From Diprion similis (lineage: Eukaryota > Arthropoda > Insecta > Hymenoptera > Diprionidae): DNA of 64,000 nt. Each line of letters opens with the position of its first letter. Positions within the stretch are counted from its first letter, which is position 1. Positions 1 to 21,500 of this stretch are shown here, one piece after another. The stretch spans positions 6,944,001 to 7,008,000 of the forward strand of contig NC_060114.1 of NCBI RefSeq assembly GCF_021155765.1, in the 5' to 3' direction. The position numbers and the translations under genes were made by a program. Below the pieces are notes generated by a model that saw nothing but the letters and a program-made list of their open reading frames with translations, searched no databases and was not told the DNA's origin.

Positions 1-1872
1 TACGTCGGAATAGTGCCTCATTAAATTGATTGCAGCACTTTTCAAAGTCGTCGAAATTTTCGGCAAAAATCCAAAGGGGTTAGCCTTACTTTTTTGGTCA
101 TTTTTGGAGCCAAAAATTTCTCGTTTCGGAATCGATTTGTATGACCATTTCTAGGGTAATTCGACCACCAGGAACTCAGAAAACACACGAAAAAAAGCGT
201 AGGACTAGCAGCAGAGAAACGACGATTAAAATCATGAGTTTTTTAGCCGTATCTTTTCAGCTATCGCTCGCAGCGTATTGAGACTGCGCTTAATCGATTC
301 CTCTCGCAAAATTACGTCGGAATAGTGCCTCCTCAAATTGATTGCAGCACTTTTCAAAGTCGTCGAAATTCTCGGCAAAAATCCAAAGGGGTTAGCCTTA
401 CTTTTTTCGTCATTTTTGGAGCCAAAAATTTCTCGTTTCGGAATCGATTTGTATGACCATTTCTAGGGTAATTTGACCACCAGGAACTCAGAAAACACAT
501 TAAAAAAAGCGTAGGACTAGCAGCGGAGAAACGACGATGAAAATCATGAGTTTTTTGGCCGTATCTTTCCAGCTATCGCTCGCAGCGTATTGGGACTGCG
601 CTTAATCGATTCCTCTCGCAAAATTACGTCGAAATAGTGCCTCATTAAATTGATTGCAGCACTTTTCAAAGTCGTCGAAATTCTCGGCAAAAATCCAAAG
701 GGGTTAGCCTTACTTTTTTCGTCATTTTTGGAGCCAAAAATTTCTCGTTTCGAAATCGATTTAAATGAACATTCCCAGGGTAATTTGACCACCAGGAACT
801 CAGAAAACACATTAAAAAAAGCGTAGGACTAGCAGCAGAGAAACAACGATTAAAATCATGAGTTTTTTGGCCGTATCTTTCCAGCTATCGCTCGCAGCGT
901 ATTGGGACTGCGCTTAATGGATTCCTCTCGCAAAATTACGTCGGAATAGTGCCTCATTAAATTGATTGCAGCACTTTTCAAAGTCGTCGAAATTTTCGGC
1001 AAAAATCCAAAGGGGTTAGCCTTACTTTTTTGGTCATTTTTGGAGCCAAAAATTTCTCGTTTCGGAATCGATTTGTATGACCATTTCTAGGGTAATTCGA
1101 CCACCAGGAACTCAGAAAACACACGAAAAAAAGCGTAGGACTAGCAGCAGAGAAACGACGATTAAAATCATAAGTTTTTTAGCCGTATCTTTTCAGCTAT
1201 CGCTCGCAGCGTATTGAGACTGCGCTTAATCGATTCCTCTCGCAAAATTACGTCGGAATAGTGCCTCCTCAAATTGATTGCAGCACTTTTCAAAGTCGTC
1301 GAAATTCTCGGCAAAAATCCAAAGGGGTTAGCCTTACTTTTTTCGTCATTTTTGGAGCCAAAAATTTCTCGTTTCGGAATCGATTTGTATGACCATTTCT
1401 AGGGTAATTTGACCACCAGGAACTCAGAAAACACATTAAAAAAAGCGTAGGACTAGCAGCGGAGAAACGACGATGAAAATCATGAGTTTTTTGGCCGTAT
1501 CTTTCCAGCTATCGCTCGCAGCGTATTGGGACTGCGCTTAATCGATTCCTCTCGCAAAATTACGTCGAAATAGTGCCTCATTAAATTGATTGCAGCACTT
1601 TTCAAAGTCGTCGAAATTCTCGGCAAAAATCCAAAGGGGTTAGCCTTACTTTTTTCGTCATTTTTGGAGCCAAAAATTTCTCGTTTCGAAATCGATTTAA
1701 ATGAACATTCCCAGGGTAATTTGACCACCAGGAACTCAGAAAACACATTAAAAAAAGCGTAGGACTAGCAGCAGAGAAACAACGATTAAAATCATGAGTT
1801 TTTTGGCCGTATCTTTCCAGCTATCGCTCGCAGCGTATTGGGACTGCGCTTAATCGATTCCTCTCGCAAAAT
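1..1872. repeat. Higher-order repeat: two copies of a 3-monomer (936-bp) block
   Basis: Positions 1-936 and 937-1872 are almost identical at an offset of exactly 936 bp (3 x 312); the 544-810 segment is repeated base for base at 1480-1746. Differences are few: atgag/ataag near 233 versus 1169, and taatgg/taatcg near 918 versus 1854. Neighbouring monomers are less alike than monomers three apart, the hallmark of recent block duplication. The first copy may start upstream of the window. Confidence 0.9.
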
Positions 1873-3959
1873 TACGTCGAAATAGTGCCTCATTTAATTG
1901 ATTGCAGCACTTTTCAAAGTCGTCGAAATTCTCGGCAAAAATCCAAAGGGGTTAGCCTTACTTTTTTCGTCATTTTTGAAGCCAAAAATTTCTCGTTTCG
2001 AAATCGATTTGAATGACCATTCCCAGGGTAATTCGACCACCAGGAACTCAGAAAACACATTAAAAAAAGCGTAGGACTAGCAGCAGAGAAACGACGATTA
2101 AAATCATGAGTTTTTTGGCCGTATCTTTCCAGCTATCGCTCGCAGCGTATTGGGACTGCGCTTAATCGATTCCTCTCGCAAAATTACGTCGGAATAGTGC
2201 CTCATCAAATTGATTGCAGCACTTTTCAAAGTCTTCGAAATTTTCGGCAAAAATCCAAAGGGGTTAGCCTTACTTTTTTGGCCATTTTCAGAGCTAAAAA
2301 TTTCTCGTCTCGCAATCGATTTGTATGACCATTTCTAGGGTAATTCGACCACCAGGAACTCAGAAAACACACGAAAAAAAGCGTAGGACTAGCAGCAGAG
2401 AAACGACGATTAAAATGATGAGTTTTTCGGCCGTATCTTTTCAGCTATCGCTCGCAGCGTATTGAGACTGCGCTTAATCGATTCCTCTCGCAAAATTACG
2501 TCGGAATAGTGCCTCCTCAAATTGATTGCAGCACTTTTCAAAGTCGTCGAAATTCTCGGCAAAAATCCAAAGGGGTTAGCCTTACTTTTTTCGTCATTTT
2601 TGTAGCCAAAAATTTCTCGTTTCGGAATCGATTTGTATGACCATTTCTAGGGTAATTTGACCACCAGGAACTCAGAAAACACATTAAAAAAAGCGTAGGA
2701 CTAGCAGCGGAGAAACGACGACGAAAATCATGAGTTTTTCGGCCGTAACTTTTCAGCTATCGCTCGCAGCGTATTGGGACTGCGCTTAATCGATTCCTCT
2801 CGCAAAATTACGTCGGAATAGTGCCTCCTCAAATTGATTGCAGCACTTTTCAAAGTCGTCGAAATTTTCGGCAAAAATCCAAAGGGGTTAGCCTTACTTT
2901 TTTGGTCATTTTTGGAGCTAAAAATTTCTCGTCTCGGAATCAATCTGTATGACCATTTCTAGGGTAATTCGACCACCAGGAACTCGGAAAACACATTCAA
3001 AAAAGCGTAGGACTAGCAGCGGAGAAACGACGATTAAAATCATGAGTTTTTTGGCCGTATCTTTTCAGCTATCGCTCGCAGCGTATTGGGACTGCGCTTA
3101 ATCGATTCCTCTCGCAAAATTACGTAGGAATAGTGCCTTATCAAACTGATTGCAGCACTTTTCAAAGTCGTCGAAATTTTCGGCAAAAATCCAAAGGGGT
3201 TAGCCTTACTTTTTTGGTCATTTTTAGAGCCAGAAATTTCTCGTTTCGGAATCGATTTGTATGACCATTTCTAGGGTAATTCGACCACCAGGAACTCAGA
3301 AAACACATTAAAAAAAGCGTAGGACTAGCAGCGGAGAAACGACGATGAAAATCATGAGTTTTTTGGCCGTATCTTTCCAGCTATCGCTCGCAGCGTATTG
3401 GGACTGCGCTTAATGGATTCCTCTCGCAAAATTACGTCGAAATAGTGCCTCATTAAATTGATTGCAGCACTTTTCGAAGTCGTCGAAATTTTCGGCAAAA
3501 ATCCAAAGGGGTTAGCCTTACTTTTTTGGTCATTTTTGGAGCCAAAAATTTTTCGTCTCGGAATCGATTTGTATGACCATTTCTAGGGTAATTCGACCAC
3601 CAGGAACTCAGAAAACACATTAAAAAAAGCGTAGGACTAGCAGCGGAGAAACGACGATGAAAATCATGAGTTTTTTGGCCGTATCTTTCCAGCTATCGCT
3701 CGCAGCGTATTGGGACTGCGCTTAATCGATTCCTCTCGCAAAATTACGTCGGAATAGTGCCTCATCAAATTGATTGCAGCACTTTTCAAAGTCGTCGAAA
3801 TTTTCGGCAAAAATCCAAAGGGGTTCGCCTTACTTTTTTGTTCATTTTTGGAGCTCAAAATTTCTCGTTTCGGAATCGATCTGTATGACCATTTCTAGGG
3901 TAATTCGACCACCAGGAACTCAGAAAACACATTAAAAAAAGCGTAGGACTAGCAGCAGA

Positions 3960-6900
3960 GAAACGACGATTAAAATCATGAGTTTTTTGGCCGTATCTTT
4001 CCAGCTATCGCTCGCAGCGTATTGGGACTGCGCTCAATCGATTCCTCTCGCAAAATTACGTTGGAATAGTGCCTCATCAAATTGATTGCAGCACTTTTCA
4101 AAGTCTTCGAAATTTTCGGCAAAAATCCAAAGGGGTTAGCCTTACTTTTTTGGCCATTTTTAGAGCCAAAAATTTCTCGTTTCGGAATCGATTTGTATGA
4201 CCATTTATAGGGTAATTCGACCACCAGGAACTCAGAAAACACATTAAAAAAAGCGTAGGACTAGCAGCGGAGAAACGACGATGAAAATCATGAGTTTTTT
4301 GGCCGTATCTTTCCAGCTATCGCTCGCAGCGTATTGGGACTGCGCTTAATCGATTCCTCTCGCAAAATTACGTCGGAATAGTGCCTCATCAAATTGATTG
4401 CAGCACTTTTCAAAGTCGTCGAAATTTTCGGCAAAAATCCAAAGGGGTTCGCCTTACTTTTTTGGTCATTTTTGGAGCTAAAAATTTCTCGTTTCGGAAT
4501 CGATCTGTATGACCATTTCTAGGGTAATTTGACCACCAGGAACTCAGAGAGAACATTAAAACAAGCGTAGGACTAGCAGCAGAGAAACGACGATGAAAAT
4601 CATGAGTTTTTCGGCCGTAACTTTTCAGCTATCGCTCGCAGCGTATTGGGACTGCGCTTAATCGATTCCTTTCGCAAAATTACGTCGGAATAGTGCCTCA
4701 TCAAATTGATTGCAGCACTTTTCAAAGTCGTCGAAATTTTCGGCAAAAATCCAAAGGGGTTAGCCTCACTTTTTTGGTCATTTTTGGAGCTAAAAATTTC
4801 TCGTTTCGGAATCGATCTGTATGACCATTTCTAGGGTAATTCGACCACCAGGAACTCAGAAAACACATTAAAAAAAGCGTAGGACTAGCAGAGGAGAAAC
4901 GACGATTAAAATCATGAGTTTTTTGGCCGTATCTTTTCAGCTATCGCTCGCAGCGTATTGGGACTGCGCTTAATCGATTCCTCTCGCAAAATTACGTCGG
5001 AATAGTGCCTCATCAAATTGATTGCAGCCCTTTTCAAAGTCGTCGAAATTTTCGGCAAAAATCTAAAGGGGTTAGCCTTACTTTTTTGGTCATTTTTGGA
5101 GCCAAAAATTTCTCGTTTCGGAATCGATTTGTATGACCATTTCTAGGGTAATTCGACCACCAGGAACTCAGAAAACACATTAAAAAAAGCGTAGGACTAG
5201 CAGCGGAGAAACGACGATGAAAATCATGAGTTTTTTGGCCGTATCTTTCCAGCTATCGCTCGCAGCGTATTGGGACTGCGCTCAATCGATTCCTCTCGCA
5301 AAATTACGTCGGAATAGTGCCTCATCAAATTGATTGCAGCACTTTTCAAAGTCTTCGAAATTTTCGGCAAAAATCCAAAGGGGTTAGCCTTACTTTTTTG
5401 GCCATTTTGAGAGCTAAAAATTTCTCGTCTCGGAATCGATTTGTATGACCATTTCTAGGGTAATTCGACCACCAGGAACTCAGAAAACACATTAAGAAAA
5501 GCGTAGGACTAGCAGCAGAGAAACGACGATTAAAATCATGAGTTTTTTGGCCGTATCTTTCCAGCTATCGCTCGCAGCGTATTGGGACTGCGCTCAATCG
5601 ATTCCTCTCGCAAAATTACGTTGGAATAGTGCCTCATCAAATTGATTGCAGCACTTTTCAAAGTCTTCGAAATTTTCGGCAAAAATCCAAAGGGGTTAGC
5701 CTTACTTTTTTGGCCATTTTTAGAGCCAAAAATTTCTCGTTTCGGAATCGATTTGTATGACCATTTCTAGGGTAATTTGACCACCAGGAACTCAGAGAGA
5801 ACATTAAAACAAGCGTAGGACTAGCAGCAGAGAAACGACGATGAAAATCATGAGTTTTTCGGCCGTAACTTTTCAGCTATCGCTCGCAGCGTATTGGGAC
5901 TGCGCTTAATCGATTCCTTTCGCAAAATTACGTCGGAATAGTGCCTCATCAAATTGATTGCAGCACTTTTCAAAGTCGTCGAAATTTTCGGCAAAAATCC
6001 AAAGGGGTTAGCCTCACTTTTTTGGTCATTTTTGGAGCTAAAAATTTCTCGTTTCGGAATCGATTTGTATGACCATTTCTAGGGTAATTCGACCACCAGG
6101 AACTCAGAAAACACATTAAGAAAAGCGTAGGACTAGCAGCAGAGAAACGACGATTAAAATCATGAGTTTTTTGGCCGTATCTTTCCAGCTATCGCTCGCA
6201 GCGTATTGGGACTGCGCTCAATCGATTCCTCTCGCAAAATTACGTTGGAATAGTGCCTCATCAAATTGATTGCAGCACTTTTCAAAGTCTTCGAAATTTT
6301 CGGCAAAAATCCAAAGGGGTTAGCCTTACTTTTTTGGCCATTTTTAGAGCCAAAAATTTCTCGTTTCGGAATCGATTTGTATGACCATTTATAGGGTAAT
6401 TCGACCACCAGGAACTCAGAAAACACATTAAAAAAAGCGTAGGACTAGCAGCGGAGAAACGACGATGAAAATCATGAGTTTTTTGGCCGTATCTTTCCAG
6501 CTATCGCTCGCAGCGTATTGGGACTGCGCTTAATCGATTCCTCTCGCAAAATTACGTCGGAATAGTGCCTCATCAAATTGATTGCAGCACTTTTCAAAGT
6601 CGTCGAAATTTTCGGCAAAAATCCAAAGGGGTTCGCCTTACTTTTTTGGTCATTTTTGGAGCTAAAAATTTCTCGTTTCGGAATCGATCTGTATGACCAT
6701 TTCTAGGGTAATTTGACCACCAGGAACTCAGAGAGAACATTAAAACAAGCGTAGGACTAGCAGCAGAGAAACGACGATGAAAATCATGAGTTTTTCGGCC
6801 GTAACTTTTCAGCTATCGCTCGCAGCGTATTGGGACTGCGCTTAATCGATTCCTTTCGCAAAATTACGTCGGAATAGTGCCTCATCAAATTGATTGCGGC

Positions 6901-7275
6901 ACTTTTCAAAGTCGTCGAAATTTTCGGCAAAAATCCAAAGGGGTTAGCCTCACTTTTTTGGTCATTTTTGGAGCTAAAAATTTCTCGTTTCGGAATCGAT
7001 CTGTATGACCATTTCTAGGGTAATTCGACCACCAGGAACTCAGAAAACACATTAAAAAAAGCGTAGGACTAGCAGAGGAGAAACGACGATTAAAATCATG
7101 AGTTTTTTGGCCGTATCTTTTCAGCTATCGCTCGCAGCGTATTGGGACTGCGCTTAATCGATTCCTCTCGCAAAATTACGTCGGAATAGTGCCTCATCAA
7201 ATTGATTGCAGCCCTTTTCAAAGTCGTCGAAATTTTCGGCAAAAATCCAAAGGGGTTAGCCTTACTTTTTTGGTC
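3960..7275. repeat. Higher-order repeat: 7-monomer (2184-bp) offset with an internal 4+3 structure
   Basis: A rare variant (aactcagagagaacatt) occurs at about 4541, 5789 and 6725, offsets of 1248 (4 monomers) and 936 (3 monomers), together 2184 bp. Other rare variants (gcagaggag, attgcagccc) recur near 4888/7072 and 5025/7209, also 2184 bp apart. Similarity starts near 3960/6144 and is lost after about 5090/7274. This indicates nested rounds of unequal exchange. Confidence 0.82.
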
Positions 7276-7414
7276 ATTTTTGGAACCAAAAATTTCTCGT
7301 CTCGCAATCGATTTGTATGACCATTTCTAGGGTAATTCGACTACCAGGAACTCAGAGAACACACGAAAAAAAGCGTAGGACTAGCTGCAGAGAAACGACG
7401 ATTAAAATTATGAG

Positions 7415-10400
7415 TTTTTTGGCCGTATCTTTCCAGCTATCGCTCGCAGCGTATTGGGACTGCGCTTAATCGATTCCTCTGGCAAAATTACGTCGGAATA
7501 GTGCCTCATCAAATTGATTGCAGCACTTTTCAAAGTCTTCGAAATTTTCGGCAAAAATCCAAAGGGGTTAGCCTTACTTTTTTGGCCATTTTTGGAGCCA
7601 AAAATTTCTGGTCTCGGAATCGATTTGTATGACCATTTCTAGGGTAATTCGACCACCAGGAACTCAGAAAACACATCAAAAAAAGCGTAGGACTAGCAGC
7701 AGAGAAACGACGATTGAAATCATGAGTTTTTTGGCCGTATCTTTCCAGCTATCGCTCGCAGCGTATTGGGACTGCGCTCAATCGATTCCTCTCGCAAAAT
7801 TACGTCGGAATAGTGCCTCATCAAATTGATTGCAGCACTTTTCAAAGTCTTCGAAATTTTCGGCAAAAATCCAAAGGGGTTAGCCTTACTTTTTTGGCCA
7901 TTTTGAGAGCCAAAAATTTCTCGTCTCGGAATCGATTTGTATGACCATTTCTAGGGTAATTCGACCACCAGGAACTCAGAAAACACATTAAGAAAAGCGT
8001 AGGACTAGCAGCAGAGAAACGACGATTAAAATCATGAGTTTTTTGGCCGTATCTTTTCAGCTATCGCTCGCAGCGTATTGGGACTGCGCTTAATCGATTC
8101 CTCTCGCAAAATTACGTCGGAATAGTGCCTCAACAAATTGATTGCAGCACTTTTTAAAGTCGTCGAAATTTTCGGCAAAAATCCAAAGGGGTTAGCCTTA
8201 CTTTTCTGGTCATTTTTGGAGCCAAAAATTTCTCGTTTCGGAATCGATTTGTATGACCATTTCTAGGGTAGTTCGACCACCAGGAACTCAGAAAACACAT
8301 TAAAAAAAGCGTAGGACTAGCAGCGGAGAAACGACGATGAAAATCATGAGTTTTTTGGCCGTATCTTTCCAGCTATCGCTCGCAGCGTATTGGGACTGCG
8401 CTTAATCGATTCCTCTCGCAAAATTACGTCGGAATAGTGTCTCATTGAATTGATTGCAGCACTTCTCAAAGTCGTCGAAATTTTCGGCAAAAATCCAAAG
8501 GGGTTAGCCTTACTTTTTTGGCCATTATTAGAGCCAAAAATTTCTCGTCTCGGAATCGATTTGTATGACCATTTCTAGGGTAATTCGACCACCAGGAACT
8601 CAGAAAACACATTAAAAAAAGCGTAGGACTAGCAGCGGAGAAACGACGATGAAAATCATGAGTTTTTCGGCCGTAACTTTCCAGCTATCGCTCGCAGCGT
8701 ATTGGGACTGCGCTCAATCGATACCTCTCGCAAAATTACGTCGGAATAGTGCCTCCTCAAATTGATTGCAGCACTTTTCAAAGTCGTCGAAATTTTCGGC
8801 AAAAATCCAAAGGGGTTAGCCTTACTTTTTTGGCCATTTTTGGAGCCAAAAATTTCTCGTCTCGGAATCGATTTGTATGACCATTTCTAGGGTAATTCGA
8901 CCACCAGGAACTCAGAAAACACATCAAAAAAAACGTAGGACTAGCAGCAGAGAAACGACGATTGAAATCATGAGTTTTTTGGCCGTATCTTTTCAGCTAT
9001 CGCTCGCAGCGTATTGGGACTGCGCTCAATCGATTCCTCTCGCAAAATTACGTCGGAATAGTGCCTCATCAAATTGATTGCAGCACTTTTCAAAGTCTTC
9101 GAAATTTTCGGCAAAAATCCAAAGGGGTTAGCCTTACTTTTTTGGCCATTTTTAGAACCAAAAATTTCTCGTCTCGGAATCGATTTGTATGACCATTTCT
9201 AGGGTAATTCGACCACCAGGAACTCAGAAAACACATTAAGAAAAGCGTAGGACCAGCAGCAGAGAAACGACGATTAAAATCATGAGTTTTTTGGCCGTAT
9301 CTTTTCAGCTATCGCTCGCAGCGTATTGGGACTGCGCTTAATCGATTCCTCTCGCAAAATTACGTCGGAATAGTGCCTCATCAAATTGATTGCAGCACTT
9401 TTTAAAGTCGTCGAAATTTTCGGCAAAAATCCAAAGGGGTTCGCCTTACTTTTTTGGTCATTTTTGGAGCTAAAAATTTCTCGTTTCGGAATCGATCTGT
9501 ATGACCATTTCTAGGGTTATTCGACCACCAGGAACTCAGAAAACACATTAAAAAAAGCGTAGGACTAGCAGCGGAGAAACGACGATTAAAATCATAAGTT
9601 TTTTGGCCGTATCTTTTCAGCTATCGCTCGCAGCGTATTGGGACTGCGCTTAATCGATTCCTCTTGCAAAATTACGTCGGAATAGTGCCTCATCAAATTG
9701 ATTGCAGCACTTTTCAAAGTCGTCGAAATTTTCGGCAAAAATCCAAAGGGGTTAGCCTTACTTTTTTGGTCATTTTTGGAGCCAAAAATTTCTCGTTTCG
9801 GAATCGATTTGTATGACCATTTCTAGGGTAATTCGACCACCAGGAACTCAGAAAACACATTAAAAAAAGCGTAGGACTAGCAGCGGAGAAACGACGATGA
9901 AAATCATGAGTTTTTTGGCCGTATCTTTCCAGCTATCGCTCGCAGCGTATTGGGACTGCGCTTAATCGATTCCTCTGGCAAAATTACGTCGGAATAGTGC
10001 CTCATCAAATTGATTGCAGCACTTTTCAAAGTCTTCGAAATTTTCGGCAAAAATCCAAAGGGGTTAGCCTTACTTTTTTGGCCATTTTTGGAGCCAAAAA
10101 TTTCTGGTCTCGGAATCGATTTGTATGACCATTTCTAGGGTAATTCGACCACCAGGAACTCAGAAAACACATCAAAAAAAGCGTAGGACTAGCAGCAGAG
10201 AAACGACGATTGAAATCATGAGTTTTTTGGCCGTATCTTTCCAGCTATCGCTCGCAGCGTATTGGGACTGCGCTCAATCGATTCCTCTCGCAAAATTACG
10301 TCGGAATAGTGCCTCATCAAATTGATTGCAGCACTTTTCAAAGTCTTCGAAATTTTCGGCAAAAATCCAAAGGGGTTAGCCTTACTTTTTTGGCCATTTC

Positions 10401-12406
10401 GAGAGCCAAAAATTTCTCGTCTCGGAATCGATTTGTATGACCATTTCTAGGGTAATTCGACCACCAGGAACTCAGAAAACACATTAAGAAAAGCGTAGGA
10501 CTAGCAGCAGAGAAACGACGATTAAAATCATGAGTTTTTTGGCCGTATCTTTTCAGCTATCGCTCGCAGCGTATTGGGACTGCGCTTAATCGATTCCTCT
10601 CGCAAAATTACGTCGGAATAGTGCCTCAACAAATTGATTGCAGCACTTTTTAAAGTCGTCGAAATTTTCGGCAAAAATCCAAAGGGGTTAGCCTTACTTT
10701 TTTGGTCATTTTTGGAGCCAAAAATTTCTCGTTTCGGAATCGATTTGTATGACCACTTCTAGGGTAGTTCGACCACCAGGAACTCAGAAAACACATTAAA
10801 AAAAGCGTAGGACTAGCAGCGGAGAAACGACGATGAAAATCATGAGTTTTTTGGCCGTATCTTTCCAGCTATCGCTCGCAGCGTATTGGGACTGCGCTTA
10901 ATCGATTCCTCTCGCAAAATTACGTCGGAATAGTGTCTCATTGAATTGATTGCAGCACTTCTCAAAGTCGTCGAAATTTTCGGCAAAAATCCAAAGGGGT
11001 TAGCCTTACTTTTTTGGCCATTTTTAGAGCCAAAAATTTCTCGTCTCGGAATCGATTTGTATGACCATTTCTAGGGTAATTCGACCACCAGGAACTCAGA
11101 AAACACATTAAAAAAAGCGTAGGACTAGCAGCGGAGAAACGACGATGAAAATCATGAGTTTTTCGGCCGTAACTTTCCAGCTATCGCTCGCAGCGTATTG
11201 GGACTGCGCTCAATCGATACCTCTCGCAAAATTACGTCGGAATAGTGCCTCCTCAAATTGATTGCAGCATTTTTCAAAGTCGTCGAAATTTTCGGCAAAA
11301 ATCCAAAGGGGTTAGCCTTACTTTTTTGGCCATTTTTGGAGCCAAAAATTTCTCGTCTCGGAATCGATTTGTATGACCATTTCTAGGGTAATTCGACCAC
11401 CAGGAACTCAGAAAACACATCAAAAAAAACGTAGGACTAGCAGCAGAGAAACGACGATTGAAATCATGAGTTTTTTGGCCGTATCTTTCCAGCTATCGCT
11501 CGCAGCGTATTGGGACTGCGCTCAATCGATTCCTCTCGCAAAATTACGTCGGAATAGTGCCTCATCAAATTGATTGCAGCACTTTTCAAAGTCTTCGAAA
11601 TTTTCGGCAAAAATCCAAAGGGGTTAGCCTTACTTTTTTGGCCATTTTTAGAACCAAAAATTTCTCGTCTCGGAATCGATTCGTATGACCATTTCTAGGG
11701 TAATTCGACCACCAGGAACTCAGAAAACACATTAAGAAAAGCGTAGGACCAGCAGCAGAGAAACGACGATTAAAATCATGAGTTTTTTGGCCGTATCTTT
11801 CCAGCTATCGCTCGCAGCGTATTGGGACTGCGCTTAATTGATTCCTCTCGCAAAATTACGTCGGAATAGTGCCTCATCAAATTGATTGCAGCACTTTTTA
11901 AAGTCGTCGAAATTTTCGGCAAAAATCCAAAGGGGTTCGCCTTACTTTTTTGGTCATTTTTGGAGCTAAAAATTTCTCGTTTCGGAATCGATCTGTATGA
12001 CCATTTCTAGGGTTATTCGACCACCAGGAACTCAGAAAACACATTAAAAAAAGCGTAGGACTAGCAGCGGAGAAACGACGATTAAAATCATAAGTTTTTT
12101 GGCCGTATCTTTTCAGCTATCGCTCGCAGCGTATTGGGACTGCGCTTAATCGATTCCTCTTGCAAAATTACGTCGGAATAGTGCCTCATCAAATTGATTG
12201 CAGCACTTTTCAAAGTCGTCGAAATTTTCGGCAAAAATCCAAAGGGGTTAGCCTTACTTTTTTGGTCATTTTTGGAGCCAAAAATTTCTCGTTTCGGAAT
12301 CGATTTGTATGACCATTTCTAGGGTAATTCGACCACCAGGAACTCAGAAAACACATTAAAAAAAGCGTAGGACTAGCAGCGGAGAAACGACGATGAAAAT
12401 CATGAG
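7415..12406. repeat. Higher-order repeat: two copies of an 8-monomer (2496-bp) block
   Basis: About 7415-9910 and 9911-12406 match at a constant offset of 2496 bp. Private variants are shared in order: cctctggcaaa (7477/9973), tagtgtctcattg (8436/10,932) and cttgcaaaatt. Only scattered single-base differences were noticed (near 8205/10,701, 8527/11,023, 8984/11,480, 9195/11,691). Each block also contains related 4-monomer halves, since the same 201-bp open segment lies at 7629, 8877, 10,125 and 11,373, offsets of 1248 bp. Confidence 0.88.
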
Positions 12407-15400
12407 TTTTTTGGCCGTATCTTTCCAGCTATCGCTCGCAGCGTATTGGGACTGCGCTTAATCGATTCCTCTCGCAAAATTACGTCGGAATAGTGCCTCA
12501 TTAAATTGATTGCAGCACTTTTCAAAGTCGTCGAAATTTTCGGCAAAAATCCAAAGGGGTTAGCCTTACTTTTTTGGCCATTTTTGGAGCCAAAAATTTC
12601 TCGTCTCGGAATCGATTTGTATGACCATTTCTAGGGTAATTCGACCACCAGGAACTCAGAAAACACATTAAAAAAAGCGTAGGACTAGCAGCGGAGAAAC
12701 GACGATGAAAATCATGAGTTTTTCGGCCGTAACTTTCCAGCTATCGCTCGCAGCGTATTGGGACTGCGCTCAATCGATACCTCTCGCAAAATTACGTCGG
12801 AATAGTGCCTCCTCAAATTGATTGCAGCACTTTTCAAAGTCGTCGAAATTTTCGGCAAAAATCCAAAGGGGTTAGCCTTACTTTTTTGGTCATTTTTGGA
12901 GCCAAAAATTTCTCGTTTCGGAATCGATTTGTATGACCATTTCTAGGGTAATTCGACCACCAGGAACTCAGAAAACACATTAAAAAAAGCGTAGGACTAG
13001 CAGCAGAGAAACGACGATTAAAATCATGAGTTTTTTGGCCGTATCTTTTCAGCTATCGCTCGCAGCGTATTGGGACTGCGCTTAATCGATTCCTCTCGCA
13101 AAATTACGTCGGAATATTGCCTCATTAAATTGATTGCAGCACTTTTCAAAGTCGTCGAAATTTTCGGCAAAAATCCAAAGGGGTTAGCCTTACTTTTTTG
13201 GCCATTTTTGGAGCCAAAAATTTCTCGTCTCGGAATCGATTTGTATGACCATTTCTAGGGTAATTCGACCACCAGGAACTCAGAAAACACATCAAAAAAG
13301 CGTAGGACTAGCAGCAGAGAAACGACGATTAAAATCATGAGTTTTTTGGCCGTATCTTTTCAGCTATCGCTCGCAGCGTATTGGGACTGCGCTTAATCGA
13401 TTCCTCTCGCAAAATTACGTCGGAATAGTGCCTTATCAAATTGATTGCAGCACTTTTCAAAGTCGTCGAAATTTTCGGCAAAAATCCAAAGGGGTTAGCC
13501 TTACTTTTTTGGTCATTTTTGGAGCCAAAAATTTCTCGTTTCGGAATCGATTTGTATGACCATTTCTAGGGTAATTCGACCACCAGGAACTCAGAAAACA
13601 CATTAAAAAAAGCGTAGGACTAGCAGCGGAGAAACGACGATGAAAATCACGAGTTTTTCGGCCGTAACTTTCCAGCTATCGCTCGCAGCGTATTGGGACT
13701 GCGCTCAATCGATACCTCTCGCAAAATTACGTCGGAATAGTGCCTCATTAAATTGATTGCAGCACTTTTCAAAGTCGTCGAAATTTTCGGCAAAAATCCA
13801 AAGGGGTTAGCCTTACTTTTTTGGCCATTTTTGGAGCCAAAAATTTCTCGTCTCGGAATCGATTTGTATGACCATTTCTAGGGTAATTCGACCACCAGGA
13901 ACTCAGAAAACACATTCAAAAAAGCGTAGGACTAGCAGCGGAGAAACGACGATGAAAATCATGAGTTTTTCGGCCGTAACTTTCCAGCTATCGCTCGCAG
14001 CGTATTGGGACTGCGCTCAATCGATACCTCTCGCAAAATTACGTCGGAATAGTGCCTCCTCAAATTGATTGCAGCACTTTTCAAAGTCGTCGAAATTTTC
14101 GGCAAAAATCCAAAGGGGTTAGCCTTACTTTTTTGGTCATTTTTGGAGCCAAAAATTTCTCGTTTCGGAATCGATTTGTATGACCATTTCTAGGGTAATT
14201 CGACCACCAGGAACTCAGAAAACACATTAAAAAAAGCGTAGGACTAGCAGCGGAGAAACGACGATGAAAATCATGAGTTTTTCGGCCGTAACTTTCCAGC
14301 TATCGCTCGCAGCGTATTGGGACTGCGCTCAATCGATACCTCTCGCAAAATTACGTCGGAATAGTGCCTCATTAAATTGATTGCAGCACTTTTCAAAGTC
14401 GTCGAAATTTTCGGCAAAAATCCAAAGGGGTTAGCCTTACTTTTTTGGCCATTTTTGGAGCCAAAAATTTCTCGTCTCGGAATCGATTTGTATGACCATT
14501 TCTAGGGTAATTCGACCACCAGGAACTCAGAAAACACATTAAAAAAAGCGTAGGACTAGCAGCGGAGAAACGACGATGAAAATCATGAGTTTTTCGGCCG
14601 TAACTTTCCAGCTATCGCTCGCAGCGTATTGGGACTGCGCTCAATCGATACCTCTCGCAAAATTACGTCGGAATAGTGCCTCCTCAAATTGATTGCAGCA
14701 CTTTTCAAAGTCGTCGAAATTTTCGGCAAAAATCCAAAGGGGTTAGCCTTACTTTTTTGGTCATTTTTGGAGCCAAAAATTTCTCGTTTCGGAATCGATT
14801 TGTATGACCATTTCTAGGGTAATTCGACCACCAGGAACTCAGAAAACACATTAAAAAAAGCGTAGGACTAGCAGCGGAGAAACGACGATGAAAATCATGA
14901 GTTTTTTGGCCGTATCTTTCCAGCTATCGCTCGCAGCGTATTGGGACTGCGCTTAATCGATTCCTCTCGCAAAATTACGTCGGAATGGTGCCTCATTAAA
15001 TTGATTGCAGCACTTTTCAAAGTCGTCGAAATTCTCGGCAAAAATCCAAAGGGGTTAGCCTTACTTTTTTCGTCATTTTTGGAGCCAAAAATTTCTCGTT
15101 TCGAAATCGATTTGTATGACCATTCCCAGGGTAATTCGACCACCAGGAACTCAGAAAACACATTCAAAAAAGCGTAGGACTAGCAGCAGAGAAACGACGA
15201 TTAAAATCATGAGTTTTTTGGCCGTATCTTTCCAGCTATCGCTCGCAGCGTATTGGGACTGCGCTTAATCGATTCCTCTCGCAAAATTACGTCGGAATAT
15301 TGCCTCAATTAATTGATTGCAGCACTTTTCAAAGTCGTCGAAATTTTCGGCAAAAATCCAAAGGGGTTAGCCTTACTTTTTTGGTCATTTTTGGAGCCAA

Positions 15401-15700
15401 AAATTTCTCGTTTCGGAATCGATTTGTATGACCATTTCTAGGGTAATTCGACCACCAGGAACTCAGAAAACACATTAAAAAAAGCGTAGGACTAGCAGCG
15501 GAGAAACGACGATGAAAATCATGAGTTTTTCGGCCGTAACTTTCCAGCTATCGCTCGCAGCGTATTGGGACTGCGCTCAATCGATACCTCTCGCAAAATT
15601 ACGTCGGAATAGTGCCTCCTCAAATTGATTGCAGCATTTTTCAAAGTCGTCGAAATTTTCGGCAAAAATCCAAAGGGGTTAGCCTCACTTTTTTTGTCAT

Positions 15701-16180
15701 TTTTGGAGCCGAGAATTTTCCGTCTCGGAATCGATTCGTATGACCCTTTCTAGATTAATTGGACGCCCAGGAACTCAGAAAATACCACAAAAAAAGCGTA
15801 GGAGCAACAGCAGAGAAATATCGACGCAGAGACCAGCAGCTGAAAAATTGAGAAAATCCATCTTTCGTTTTTTGGCTGTAACTTTTGATCCGTTGCTCGC
15901 AGCGCATTCCGACTGCGCTTTATCGATTTCTCTCGTAAAATTACGTCGGAATAGAGCCTGAAAGAATTTATTGCAGCACTTTTCAGACTCATCGAAATTT
16001 TTTCAAAAAATCCAAACGGGTTATCCCAACTGCGTCGGCGATAATCGATCGTGGTTAGCCTCGAATTTGATTCGTGTGACCCTATCACAGCTAATTCGAT
16101 TCCATCAGAACGCAAAAAAGACAGCCATGAATAGAGCGTAGGACTACCAGCAAAGAAATCACAAAAAATATGGAGAAATC
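15701..16180. repeat. Divergent satellite monomers at the array edge
   Basis: The monomer between the acgtcggaatag motifs at 15,601 and 15,943 is 342 bp and carries an insertion around 15,822-15,875. The next one is clearly mutated and stops near 16,180. Similarity to the consensus remains obvious (ttttggctgtaacttttgatc, gtaggactaccagcaaagaaa). Confidence 0.85.
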
Positions 16181-16600: not shown

Positions 16601-17190
16601 TCCAAGTATTTTGGCCGTAACTTTCGATCGTTTTATTGAATCAGTGATCCTTGGTTTTTCTTTATTCCGAGACTTTCGAACCCAGACATTTCTTTGTCTA
16701 GAATTGGTTTCTACGACTCTCATCAGACTAAATGACCATCAGAAATGCAAAGACATCTAAAACAGCGTAGAATCAACAGCTTAAAAAATAGTAAGAAATC
16801 TCCTCGTTTTCCTACCATTACTCCCGCTACGTTGCTCGTAGCAAATTCTGATGGCACGCAATCGATTCCTTCCACAAAAACACGTTGGTATAGTGCACCA
16901 AAGAATCGATCCCAGAATTATTCGGAACCGTCAAAATTCTCATCATAAATCCAAAGATCCATCTTAATTTATCTTAGCAAGAAATGTTTCATCTCAGAAT
17001 CGATTAATATGTTCCTTTCTCGTCTAATTGGAGCCCCGAGAACGCATAAGAGGTACCAAAAACGGCGTACCAATAGCAGAGAAATTAGTGAGATAATTTT
17101 TCGTTTTTGAGCTGTGGCTCTTGATCTTCGCAGCGTACTCCATACAGCTCATCCACAAGCTCTACGAGTAGCCGTTTGAGATATAAATAA
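16601..17190. repeat. Highly degenerate satellite monomers
   Basis: Fragments in satellite order are still readable: ttggccgtaactttcgatcg (16,611), gtagaatcaacagc (16,767), ttgctcgtagcaaattctga (16,833), cgattccttccacaaaaacacg (16,862), then aaatccaaagatcc (16,948) and a partial further unit to about 17,190. This is the oldest edge of the array. Confidence 0.75.
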
Positions 17191-17784
17191 AATAATCTCA
17201 TTCATTCTCATTATTCTAGAATCGTAATGCATTGAAATGAATCAAGCATTGATATCTTTTTCATTATTATTTAGTGTTGAAAAGAAAGGCCCTGGACACG
17301 CCGGAATATTTTCAGTATCAATCATGCGGTAATAAACATATGAAAAGGCATCTTAATTATGCACGAGTGCACGATTCTGGAATAATGATAATGAATTAGA
17401 TTATTTTCTTACCTCGAAAAACTGCTACAGTTTTTTTTCGATTTCCTTCTCCCTTCTTCATTTTCTCCGTTTGTTCACACTTCCGATTAGCAATCTGAGA
17501 TTCTTCAATTTTTTGAATGAAAAAGCATCTGATACAACTGACTGAACAACGTAGATCAATACTCGCGGCATTTGCCGATGCTTCAGTACTCATCCATTTT
17601 TATGAGCGTCTTTTACCGCCAACGGAATTATTCATTTCAATCCGCTTACTATACAATTTTATTTATTTATACATTAATTATTATATTCTTATTTATCATC
17701 AGTGTATTTTGTGCAAGCAATGTACAAAGGTGTAAATATTTCGCGCAGAGCACATCCCAAAGACTGGTAAAATTCGCCAATATA
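17191..17784. other. AT-rich boundary between satellite and genes
   Basis: No convincing gene. It holds the probable 3' end of the neighbouring minus-strand transcript: on the minus strand an AATAAA hexamer lies at 17,658-17,663, about 125 bp past the stop at 17,785. Short open frames on both strands lack recognisable content. Confidence 0.45.
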
Positions 17785-18513
17785 TTACCCAAGACAACAG
17801 GGAATGATGGCCCGTTTTCTACGCCGCTTAACCGCGTCATTCAGTCGTCCAAAATCTGCATCCTTATCCTTCGGACAAAATTCTGACCGATCAGAGCTGC
17901 TCTCATCGCTGAAAGAGCTTTCGAAACATGGCCGCGTTTTTTCGCCGTCAAAGTCCTTCGACGAATTTCTCGAAATATCATCGATCCCAAAATGATCCTC
18001 ATAAACTCGGATCTCACTCTTGGATTTTGAGTAATCGAAAAACCGCAATTCCGTCTCGTCGCCGCTCAGAGGATCTCCGGATGTATTCTCTGCGGTTTTT
18101 CTCACGTATTCGAAAGGCAAAAATGAGATGTTGACTGGAGGATACAGAGAGAAGTCCTTCATCTCTCGGAAATCGTTGTTCAGCACGGAGGCCAATATCG
18201 GTGTGACTGGGGTTTCCGGTTCATCGGGAATAATCCTGATCAACTCGGCCTCGGCGTGTCGAATAATTTCGGCTTCGAGAAATCGTTTGAAGCTTCGTTT
18301 GCTCTCTTCAACGTTTTTTAAATTTATCCTATCAAGTTTCTTCCGTAATTTCAGACACTCTTTGAAATTCGTTTCTATTTTTGTACGCCTCGAGTCACCG
18401 CGCATTTCTGGCTTCTCGTCGATCGACAACACCAATGGAACATCTTCACCACAGCGATTTTTAGATGAATCTGTAGACGCTGATCCGGTCGAATTTCCAT
18501 TCTCGCAACGGTG
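17785..18513 (-). CDS. 242-codon open extension in frame with the GCP3 stop codon
   Basis: Directly after the GCP3 TGA (18,514-18,516) the same frame stays open for 242 codons to a TAA at 17,785-17,787, in DNA where stops are otherwise frequent. The predicted product is unfamiliar: charged, rich in S/E/D/K/R, with a basic probably helical section (KECLKLRKKLDRINLKN), an acidic serine-rich stretch (SSFSDESSSDRSEF) and a polybasic end KRRRKRAIIPCCLG whose last four residues resemble a CaaX-type lipidation signal. It could be a translational readthrough domain of GCP3 (stop context TGA-C), a separate gene starting at the ATG at 18,403-18,405 (206 aa), or an exon reached by splicing around the stop. 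The AATAAA at 17,658-17,663 lies downstream, so the GCP3 transcript may include it. No domain was recognised. Confidence 0.5.
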   Translation of the reverse strand, partial: HRCENGNSTGSASTDSSKNRCGEDVPLVLSIDEKPEMRGDSRRTKIETNFKECLKLRKKLDRINLKNVEESKRSFKRFLEAEIIRHAEAELIRIIPDEPETPVTPILASVLNNDFREMKDFSLYPPVNISFLPFEYVRKTAENTSGDPLSGDETELRFFDYSKSKSEIRVYEDHFGIDDISRNSSKDFDGEKTRPCFESSFSDESSSDRSEFCPKDKDADFGRLNDAVKRRRKRAIIPCCLG

Positions 18514-21500
18514 TCACTTGCAGACTGGAAACGACTGCTCGCTTTGTCTACGGTGCTGGTACGTCAAAGGTGCCACTAATCGGCTATCTCTGCTCTTGTA
18601 GTACTCGTTGAAGTCAAGCCGAACGCTGAGAAGCTGGAGCGAAACGTCTTCAGCCGATGCGAGCATCAGGAGAAACTTCTTCACGCGATCCTAACAGAAA
18701 CAAAAATGAAATCAGATACCTTTCGATTCGAGAGAATGGTGGATATTAGGGGTGTGCGAATCGAGTGGTGGTAAAAGTGTAAAATTTTTTTCATGAATTC
18801 GATTTAAGTTAAAAAAAAACAAGATTTCTTGATTTATTCGGTCGGGTTGGCGAATATTCGATTTTTTTTATATATTCGTGACAAAATATCCGAGTAATTC
18901 AATTAATACGAACCATTTCAGTAACTATAGAATAATTTGAAGTATTCTAATCGATTTTCTGATAGAATCCCGATTCGATTTGACAACAATTTGCACACTC
19001 CTGTGAAAATTAATTAACTGAAATCTGATTACATACTTGATAAGTTCTTGAGAGGAATTTCAGATGCAGGGAGAGTGTGGCTAGATATTTGGTGAAAATA
19101 TTTGTACGTTTGGCATCCTTCGCATCTCCGCTTGTTGTCCTCCCCCACTTTTTACTTGGTTCACATTTATTCTCAATTTTGTTTTCTGCTTTTTTTCGGT
19201 CTTCGTACTCCTGCATTGCTCTTTCTAGAAATGTCTCTTCCAGCGCCTGGAGCTCCAGGATCGGACCGTAAACAGATCTTAAATGATTCATGAGCTCCTG
19301 AAAGAAGTAAATCGTTTTCTTAGTATTTCAAGAAGACACGAAACTCATTGTTTTGCGATTTCGCAGAACTTTTCATCCTTCTGTGATCCAAATTCACTGG
19401 AAATCGCTTTTTGGATTTGTTTGCAAAGTGAGAAACCCTGTCTTCACGACGAAATTGTCCATTGCAATTTGGATGAAACCTACTTCAATGATTGAATTGT
19501 AGTTTCCTAATATTTTCGTCAATCAGTTCAGATCAAATTTTGCAAATTCACGACGCCTCTTCACAGAACTTGGCACACGACTTGATGGTGTTAATTTATA
19601 ATTTCAAGAATTTGTCTGTCATTTTTAATCTGCGAGGTACGGCAGGGCGAAATATTCAACTGTTTAAGTCGAAAAATCGCGCATAAAAAATTGCTGCTCT
19701 ATCACATTCTGAAAAATCCAGCGTGCTTTCAGTATCCTCTCTACTCACCTGCGAATTCTCGTCAAGCAGCGTGCCGCGTCTGACGGACTCAACGAAATTG
19801 TTATGCGCAGATATAATGTCATCAAGAGAAGTTGCTTGGCCTAATTGCCGGGCAAAAACATCCCAGGAACACTCTATTACCTGAAAAAAGGGTCAAATTG
19901 TATTGAATGAGTTGGTTCAGTTGATTTAAACGCTTGTTTCAAGCTGCATCGAGAAACAATCGCTCACCTCGAATAAAAAGTAATACTGCATTTGATGGAC
20001 GAGGTGAACCATGCTGCTCGTTATCAAGTGAATGTGATTCTGTATCGGTAATACTTCCGGCATTTTTCTAAATATCTTCGCCGACGTCGTCTGCCGCTTC
20101 CATATACCAGACAAAATCGATTCCATCCGCTTCGCTCGCCAAAGAGAGAAGAAGACGGTCTGATAAGTCTGACGACAAGGCTCCAGAATCTGTAATGTGT
20201 GAATATTTATGTACAGAAATTGTAGATTGTCGAAATTCTTCGATGCTCTTGCAAAAAAAAAAAAGCGTTTCTATTCACGAAAAATAAGATAAACACGCGT
20301 AATGATTGATTAAACGTAGCAGCCAGTGTGCAAAACCATTTCAGAATCTCCTTTTTGAACGGTTTCTCAAAGATACAGTCTACGAATATGTTATTAATCA
20401 GAAGTTACGCAGCGCATTTGTGGTGAATAGAAAATTCTCTTACCGTTCCTATAGGTCCATCGACGTTGTAGTCAAGTATGAAAACGTCCCATCCAGTCTC
20501 GTTTTCAGAGGGAGCAAGCGAGCGAACATACAAACGTCTCTGCACATCGAGATCATCAAATTTCGCGCTCGTAGCTCTGATCGCCGTTTCAAGGATAGGA
20601 AACAAGTTGTGAGTGTTCAACGAATTTGCCGGCTTAGCCAATTCAGGTCTGAAATGCAATTACCAAGTTTTCAAACATGGAAATTCGTGGACATTCCGTT
20701 TAAACGAAAATTAGCAATTTTCGACGCACCAATGAGTCGTTTAAATCAATAAAAGAAACAAAAAGTATTCGAACTCGGGGTAAAAAAACTGCGCGAAACC
20801 TCAAATCCATTGACTCACTCGAGGAGATGCATCAGGTGTTGAATAAAATGACCTTGTCCGAGTAAAAGGTAGCCTTTTATACCCTGCAGATGTTCCATGA
20901 GGTTGTATTGTTTGGTCAAAATTTCGACGACCCTCGTCGAAGTTTCTTTGAACGCAGTTTCCATCATAGTTTGAAGAGGACCATCTGGATCCATGTCGAA
21001 CAGAGCTTCAACTGAAAGAATATCGAATTTTAAGGTGCAGTCACAAATTTTTGGGTACAAAAAAGGTGAAAGGGTAAACATTTTGTAGAGTCTAAAAATC
21101 ATTGCAAGTCTAAAACAATCGATTAACTATCGACAATAATGAATGAAAAAAAATTATACACTGCAAATTAGAATAAAATTCAACTGAAAGAATTTTACCC
21201 ACTTCTTTGAAAGCGAAATTTGAGTTACTGGAACAGATTTTGTACCGTTTGAATCTTCCGCGTTTTGTTGAAACGATTCCCTGTGCCTCTCCTGAAGGGG
21301 TGCGGAGTCCTTACAAATCTCTCTCAGGAAATTGATGCTCTTTCCTGTCCCAAGAATCTTTCTCGCCTGAGCCTTGCTGATGAAAGTTGGAACCATGGAG
21401 TCCCTGACCTGATACTTTTCGTGCCACATTCTGTCACCTGCGACGTCTGACCTTGCTTCGATAAAAAACTCGTTTCTAGAGTCGTCCAGTTCTCCCTCGG

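Follow-up and report, generated by a model that had tools for sequence, protein, structure and literature searches.

The gene for gamma-tubulin complex component 3 (GCP3), a microtubule-nucleating protein that belongs to the core of the gamma-tubulin complex, ends in this stretch of DNA at a TGA codon, and the reading frame then stays open for a further 242 codons before it meets a second stop. The locus raises two questions: whether the DNA beyond the TGA encodes protein and, if it does, by which route ribosomes might come to translate it.

The end of GCP3 and the frame beyond its stop codon

The window referred to here is the whole stretch of DNA that was analysed, 64,000 nucleotides in length. 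GCP3 lies on its minus strand, where its exons match the Pfam families GCP_N_terminal and GCP_C_terminal, and all features described below are on the minus strand unless stated otherwise. The last coding exon (18517-18690, 58 codons) follows a 3' splice site placed before 18690. Comparison of this exon, taken together with its stop codon (18690-18514), with PDB sequences matched the C-termini of three distinct GCP3 sequences with E values of 4.7e-8 to 8.5e-7. The best match covers residues 858-905 of the 907 residues of a chain that we take to be human GCP3, and the PDB alignment of the exon ends 8 residues before the TGA. The three matched sequences are 906 to 910 residues long and terminate at the family C-terminus. 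The exon also aligns with positions 276-309 of Pfam GCP_C_terminal, with an E value of 0.0063 that, taken alone, falls below the curated cut-off. The alignment with the ends of the three PDB sequences bears out the first-pass annotation of this DNA, which had placed the TGA at the conserved C-terminus of the family.

Read directly from 18690 to 17785, a single frame comprises the end of GCP3 (...QHRRQSEQSFPVCK), the TGA (18516-18514), 242 sense codons (18513-17788) and a TAA (17787-17785), as had been proposed, and the nucleotide that follows the TGA is a C, which confirms the leaky TGA-C context described earlier. Eight stop-to-stop frames in the window reach 150 aa or more; the second frame is the longest of them, ahead of one of 238. 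Under Markov models with the ORF's own composition, the probability of 242 open codons is 1.7e-5 (dinucleotide model) or 9.8e-5 (order-2 model), and about 0.006 frames as long as the second ORF would be expected in the window. The G+C content of the frame is 45.7%, compared with 29% immediately beyond its end and 31% for the last intron of GCP3; the earlier description of the ORF as lying in AT-rich DNA thus applies to its flanks and not to the ORF itself.

A motif search placed overlapping AATAAA poly(A) signals at 17658-17667, one beginning at 17667 and the other at 17663, some 120 nt past the second stop, where the first-pass annotation had also seen an AATAAA. Between the two stops neither AATAAA nor ATTAAA was found on the minus strand (16800-19400 searched), and the signals past the second stop are the sole AATAAA found downstream of the TGA as far as 16800. 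Given this position of the poly(A) signals, the second frame is most simply placed within the GCP3 mRNA.

Coding character of the second frame

We assessed the second frame with two kinds of measure, a Z-curve classifier and plain codon log-odds, both trained on 26 of 30 kinase loci, the other four having been dropped for stops inside the match. The Z-curve classifier was built within this single genome and had a cross-validated AUC of 0.957. In the frame of GCP3 (frame 0), the second ORF gave a score of 1.86, which is inside the range of 0.53 to 4.79 spanned by five pieces of GCP3 exons (3.23 when the pieces were joined in frame), whereas the other five frames over the same DNA were all negative, at -1.97 to -5.79. 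Scores as high as that of the second ORF were found for 0.3% of off-frame windows, 3.5% of antisense windows and 1.8% of non-coding windows. Some of the non-coding training windows, which came from positions 1001-14000 of the window, are satellite DNA; with satellite DNA left out of the negatives, a 120-codon classifier gave the second ORF 2.11, and the result holds.

The Z-curve signal varies along the ORF. Codons 1-121 scored 2.47 and codons 122-242 scored 1.26, with 3.65 for codons 37-156 and -2.19 for codons 205-240. Among the 36-codon sliding windows wholly inside the ORF, 9 of 11 were positive in frame 0, the two negative ones being 18366-18259 (-2.02, with 1.15 in frame 1) and 17934-17827 (-0.25). 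Both 36-codon windows that span the TGA were negative (-0.91 and -1.19). The first 36 codons, which precede the first in-frame ATG, scored best in frame 0 (0.77 versus -1.56 and -3.29), at a coding likelihood ratio of only about 2.4. On balance, the coding signal is strongest at about codons 69-206.

Codon counts were compared with 1988 null blocks. GAN codons number 47 in the second ORF against 30.9 expected, a count reached by 5 of the blocks, and CAA/CAG codons are absent where 6.5 were expected, as in only 2 of the blocks; the two other frames of the same strand hold 10 and 9 of them. RNY codons number 72 against 62, which 160 blocks reached. Plain codon log-odds, measured against the ORF's own composition, were weak with each of the three training sets (z of 0.64, 1.07 and 1.35; p of 0.28, 0.16 and 0.09), and in every set at least one antisense frame stood above the sense frame. 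A chi-square test of base by codon position gave p = 0.097. We consider the second frame to be probably coding and probably translated, with a signal from one of the two kinds of measure, the Z-curve, and a codon usage that is weakly coding-like. A plus-strand open frame at 18035-18601 (188 aa) was considered as a case of antisense coding and rejected on the Z-curve scores of the plus-strand frames over the ORF (-3.93 to -5.79); this rejection is qualified by the plain codon log-odds, in which some antisense frames outscored the sense frame.

Routes by which the second frame might be translated

The first-pass annotation had offered three explanations for the second frame: readthrough of the TGA, an independent gene starting at 18405 and splicing around the stop. 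The best of these is readthrough, given the TGA-C context, the lack of a good splice that would retain most of the frame, the position of the sole downstream AATAAA past the second stop and the weakly coding-like sequence before the ATG. The evidence within this genome that the frame is coding (Z-curve and codon counts) also speaks for it, while a downstream start still competes. In our judgement, which is not a computation of odds, translational readthrough of TGA-C yielding a minor form of GCP3 with a charged tail is the somewhat likelier truth about this locus. The GCP3 mRNA would extend past the TGA as far as the poly(A) signals around 17660, and the majority of ribosomes would terminate at the TGA to give ordinary GCP3. 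Some ribosomes would decode the leaky TGA-C with a near-cognate tRNA, stay in frame and terminate at the TAA, producing a GCP3 that carries about 243 additional residues. This would probably provide the cell with a minor set of gamma-tubulin complexes whose targeting or partners are changed. Two steps in this account are inferred: the passage of ribosomes over the TGA and a function for the tail. The 110 nt from the TGA onward showed no unusual RNA fold (z 0.26). RNA editing of the UGA was set aside as a cause, an A that follows a G being, from general knowledge, a poor editing site.

The GCP3 tail would be a new and long case of a phenomenon that is well known and abundant in insects. One study puts the number of stops subject to readthrough at over 600 in a mosquito and over 900 in a fruit fly; it takes a C after the stop and the length of the second frame as signs of readthrough, and bases its criteria on cross-species conservation (PMC5100048). 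A bumblebee study reports 851 readthrough candidates, at least 306 of them considered functional, and gives TGA-C as the context favoured in readthrough genes of insects (PMC7826183). The readthrough genes of Drosophila, Anopheles and bumblebees in these two sources are like GCP3 in that their first stop is TGA-C and is followed in frame by a second ORF that looks coding, a character that in GCP3 is weak by plain codon usage. In contrast to the conserved genes in those sources (PMC5100048, PMC7826183), the GCP3 tail is known from a single genome, is 242 codons long and comes without RNA structure after the stop. A further comparison is offered by C-terminal extensions with targeting signals found by ribosome profiling in Drosophila, of which 3 of the 4 NLS-bearing ones tested reportedly took a reporter into the nucleus (PMC3840789). 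They share with the GCP3 tail a basic NLS-like run and the Z-curve as a type of evidence; however, they have footprints and, where novel, a median length of 16 codons, whereas the GCP3 tail is known from sequence alone (PMC3840789). Compared with known GCP3, the proposed form has the same protein body and the usual C-terminus, where the three PDB sequences end without a tail. Among the papers listed in our literature search, none appeared to link GCP3, Grip91 or gamma-tubulin with readthrough or a C-terminal extension, although GCP3 of other insects may be among the candidates already published.

The best-placed alternative to readthrough, although we hold it to be unlikely, is a separate product of 206 aa translated from the first in-frame ATG (18403-18405, context ccagaaATGC), either from a dicistronic GCP3 mRNA or from a short transcript of its own that starts inside the 3' end of GCP3. 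The ATG is present at 18405, as the first-pass annotation had stated, and forms codon 37 of the second frame; it has an A at -4 and a G, hence a purine, at -3, and the codons that begin with it (37-156) carry the Z-curve score of 3.65 given above. A TATAAA is found at 18872, within the last intron of GCP3, but between this TATA-like motif and the ATG there are four other ATGs, of which three are not in frame. The stretch of 36 codons that precedes the ATG is open and has its best score in the frame of GCP3, which argues against an internal start, although the coding signal there is only weakly positive and 37 open codons alone have a chance probability of 0.19. In addition, an independent gene starting at 18405 would match the frame of GCP3 only one time in three.

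An alternative splice form that links GCP3, or a gene nested in GCP3, to part of the second frame while omitting the TGA appears to us very unlikely. We scored 331 frame-keeping splice pairs, whose donors were the GT sites within the last two exons plus one donor further upstream, with generic consensus scores and not with a trained model or MaxEnt. Donor 19748 paired with acceptor 17868 gave the best total (7.82), which is above that of one real intron (7.34), but this pair would retain only 27 codons. Within the second frame there is also a strong 3'-splice-like site, with 18134 as the first base after it, which scored 5.24 against 4.93 for the real acceptor of the last exon. This site is in phase 1, however, and is incompatible with the two canonical donors scored, both of which are in phase 0; the best donor that would keep the frame with it is weak (-0.47) and brings the total to 4.76 with 115 codons retained, and the sequence just upstream of it (18258-18151) is itself coding-like, with a Z-curve score of 3.96. 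Pairs with an acceptor before codon 37 reached totals of at most 3.0, whereas the two real introns that we scored reached 13.1 and 7.3. Among the 331 pairs, and on these generic scores, the splices that would remove the TGA and retain most of the second frame thus use poor sites.

Less probable still is that GCP3 is normally long-tailed in this species and that the TGA arose by a recent nonsense mutation, is polymorphic or reflects an error of the assembly. GCP3 and the second frame are continuous, such that a single substitution would unite them, but the TGA falls within a few residues of the ends of the matched GCP3 chains, which suggests that the stop is at its expected ancestral place. We give hardly any weight to a long open frame that arose by chance in the 3' untranslated region: the weak plain codon log-odds would fit such a frame, but the probabilities of openness (1.7e-5 to 9.8e-5), the frame-specific signal in the Z-curve and codon counts and the coincidence of the G+C borders with the frame all count against it. 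Selenocysteine insertion, for which the TGA codon itself speaks, is disfavoured and most improbable. None of the three Rfam matches at 17400-18700 (E up to 10, all far below their own cut-offs) is a SECIS, and a search of the genome for eEFSec domain III (PF21208), with E values up to 1, gave no match, though an exon-split gene could escape this search, which had no eukaryote control. Selenoproteins are reported as lost in both Hymenoptera genomes examined (PMC2500217).

The predicted tail and its surroundings

The first-pass annotation had predicted a long charged tail, and the composition agrees: the 242 residues include 43 K/R and 47 D/E, and neither Gln nor Trp. Correspondingly, there is no CAA, CAG or TGG among the 242 codons of the ORF. 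Serine occurs 10 times in the first half of the tail and 17 times in the second. The tail ends in KRRRKRAIIPCCLG, and near this C-terminal end a basic run, KRRRKR (17812-17829), is followed by AIIPCCLG; this end may serve as a signal for nuclear localization or membrane contact. A run of six consecutive K/R was obtained in 454 of 100000 composition shuffles of the tail, and a role for the tail in targeting is a fair guess, no more.

A search of the tail against its own genome (269 Mb, 60 contigs; E up to 1) returned a single match, which was the tail itself, and searches of Pfam and NCBIfam returned 0 families each. Against PDB sequences the tail gave one match at chance level, to a chain named Matrix protein (E 1.1), and 8 pattern matches in viral contigs and 26 in prokaryotic genome contigs included none that was confirmed.

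If the readthrough form is real, the composition of the gamma-tubulin complex would be tunable by translation in some insects. One could imagine, as a quite unlikely extension of this idea, that readthrough is regulated and provides this insect lineage with a second class of gamma-tubulin ring complex, in which the basic end and the cysteine pair of the 243-residue tail would move a minor pool to the nucleus or a membrane, and the degree to which a single stop codon leaks would determine the sites of microtubule nucleation. The length of the tail makes a test by mass spectrometry or footprinting easy.

Beyond GCP3, positions 1-15818 of the window are occupied by a satellite array in which a unit of 312 bp recurs in about 50.7 copies (95% match); it begins at or before the edge of the window and ends some 2 kb past the TAA of the second frame. 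TTAGG arrays, which fit an insect other than a fly, are also present in the genome, those listed being at the start of contig C1.
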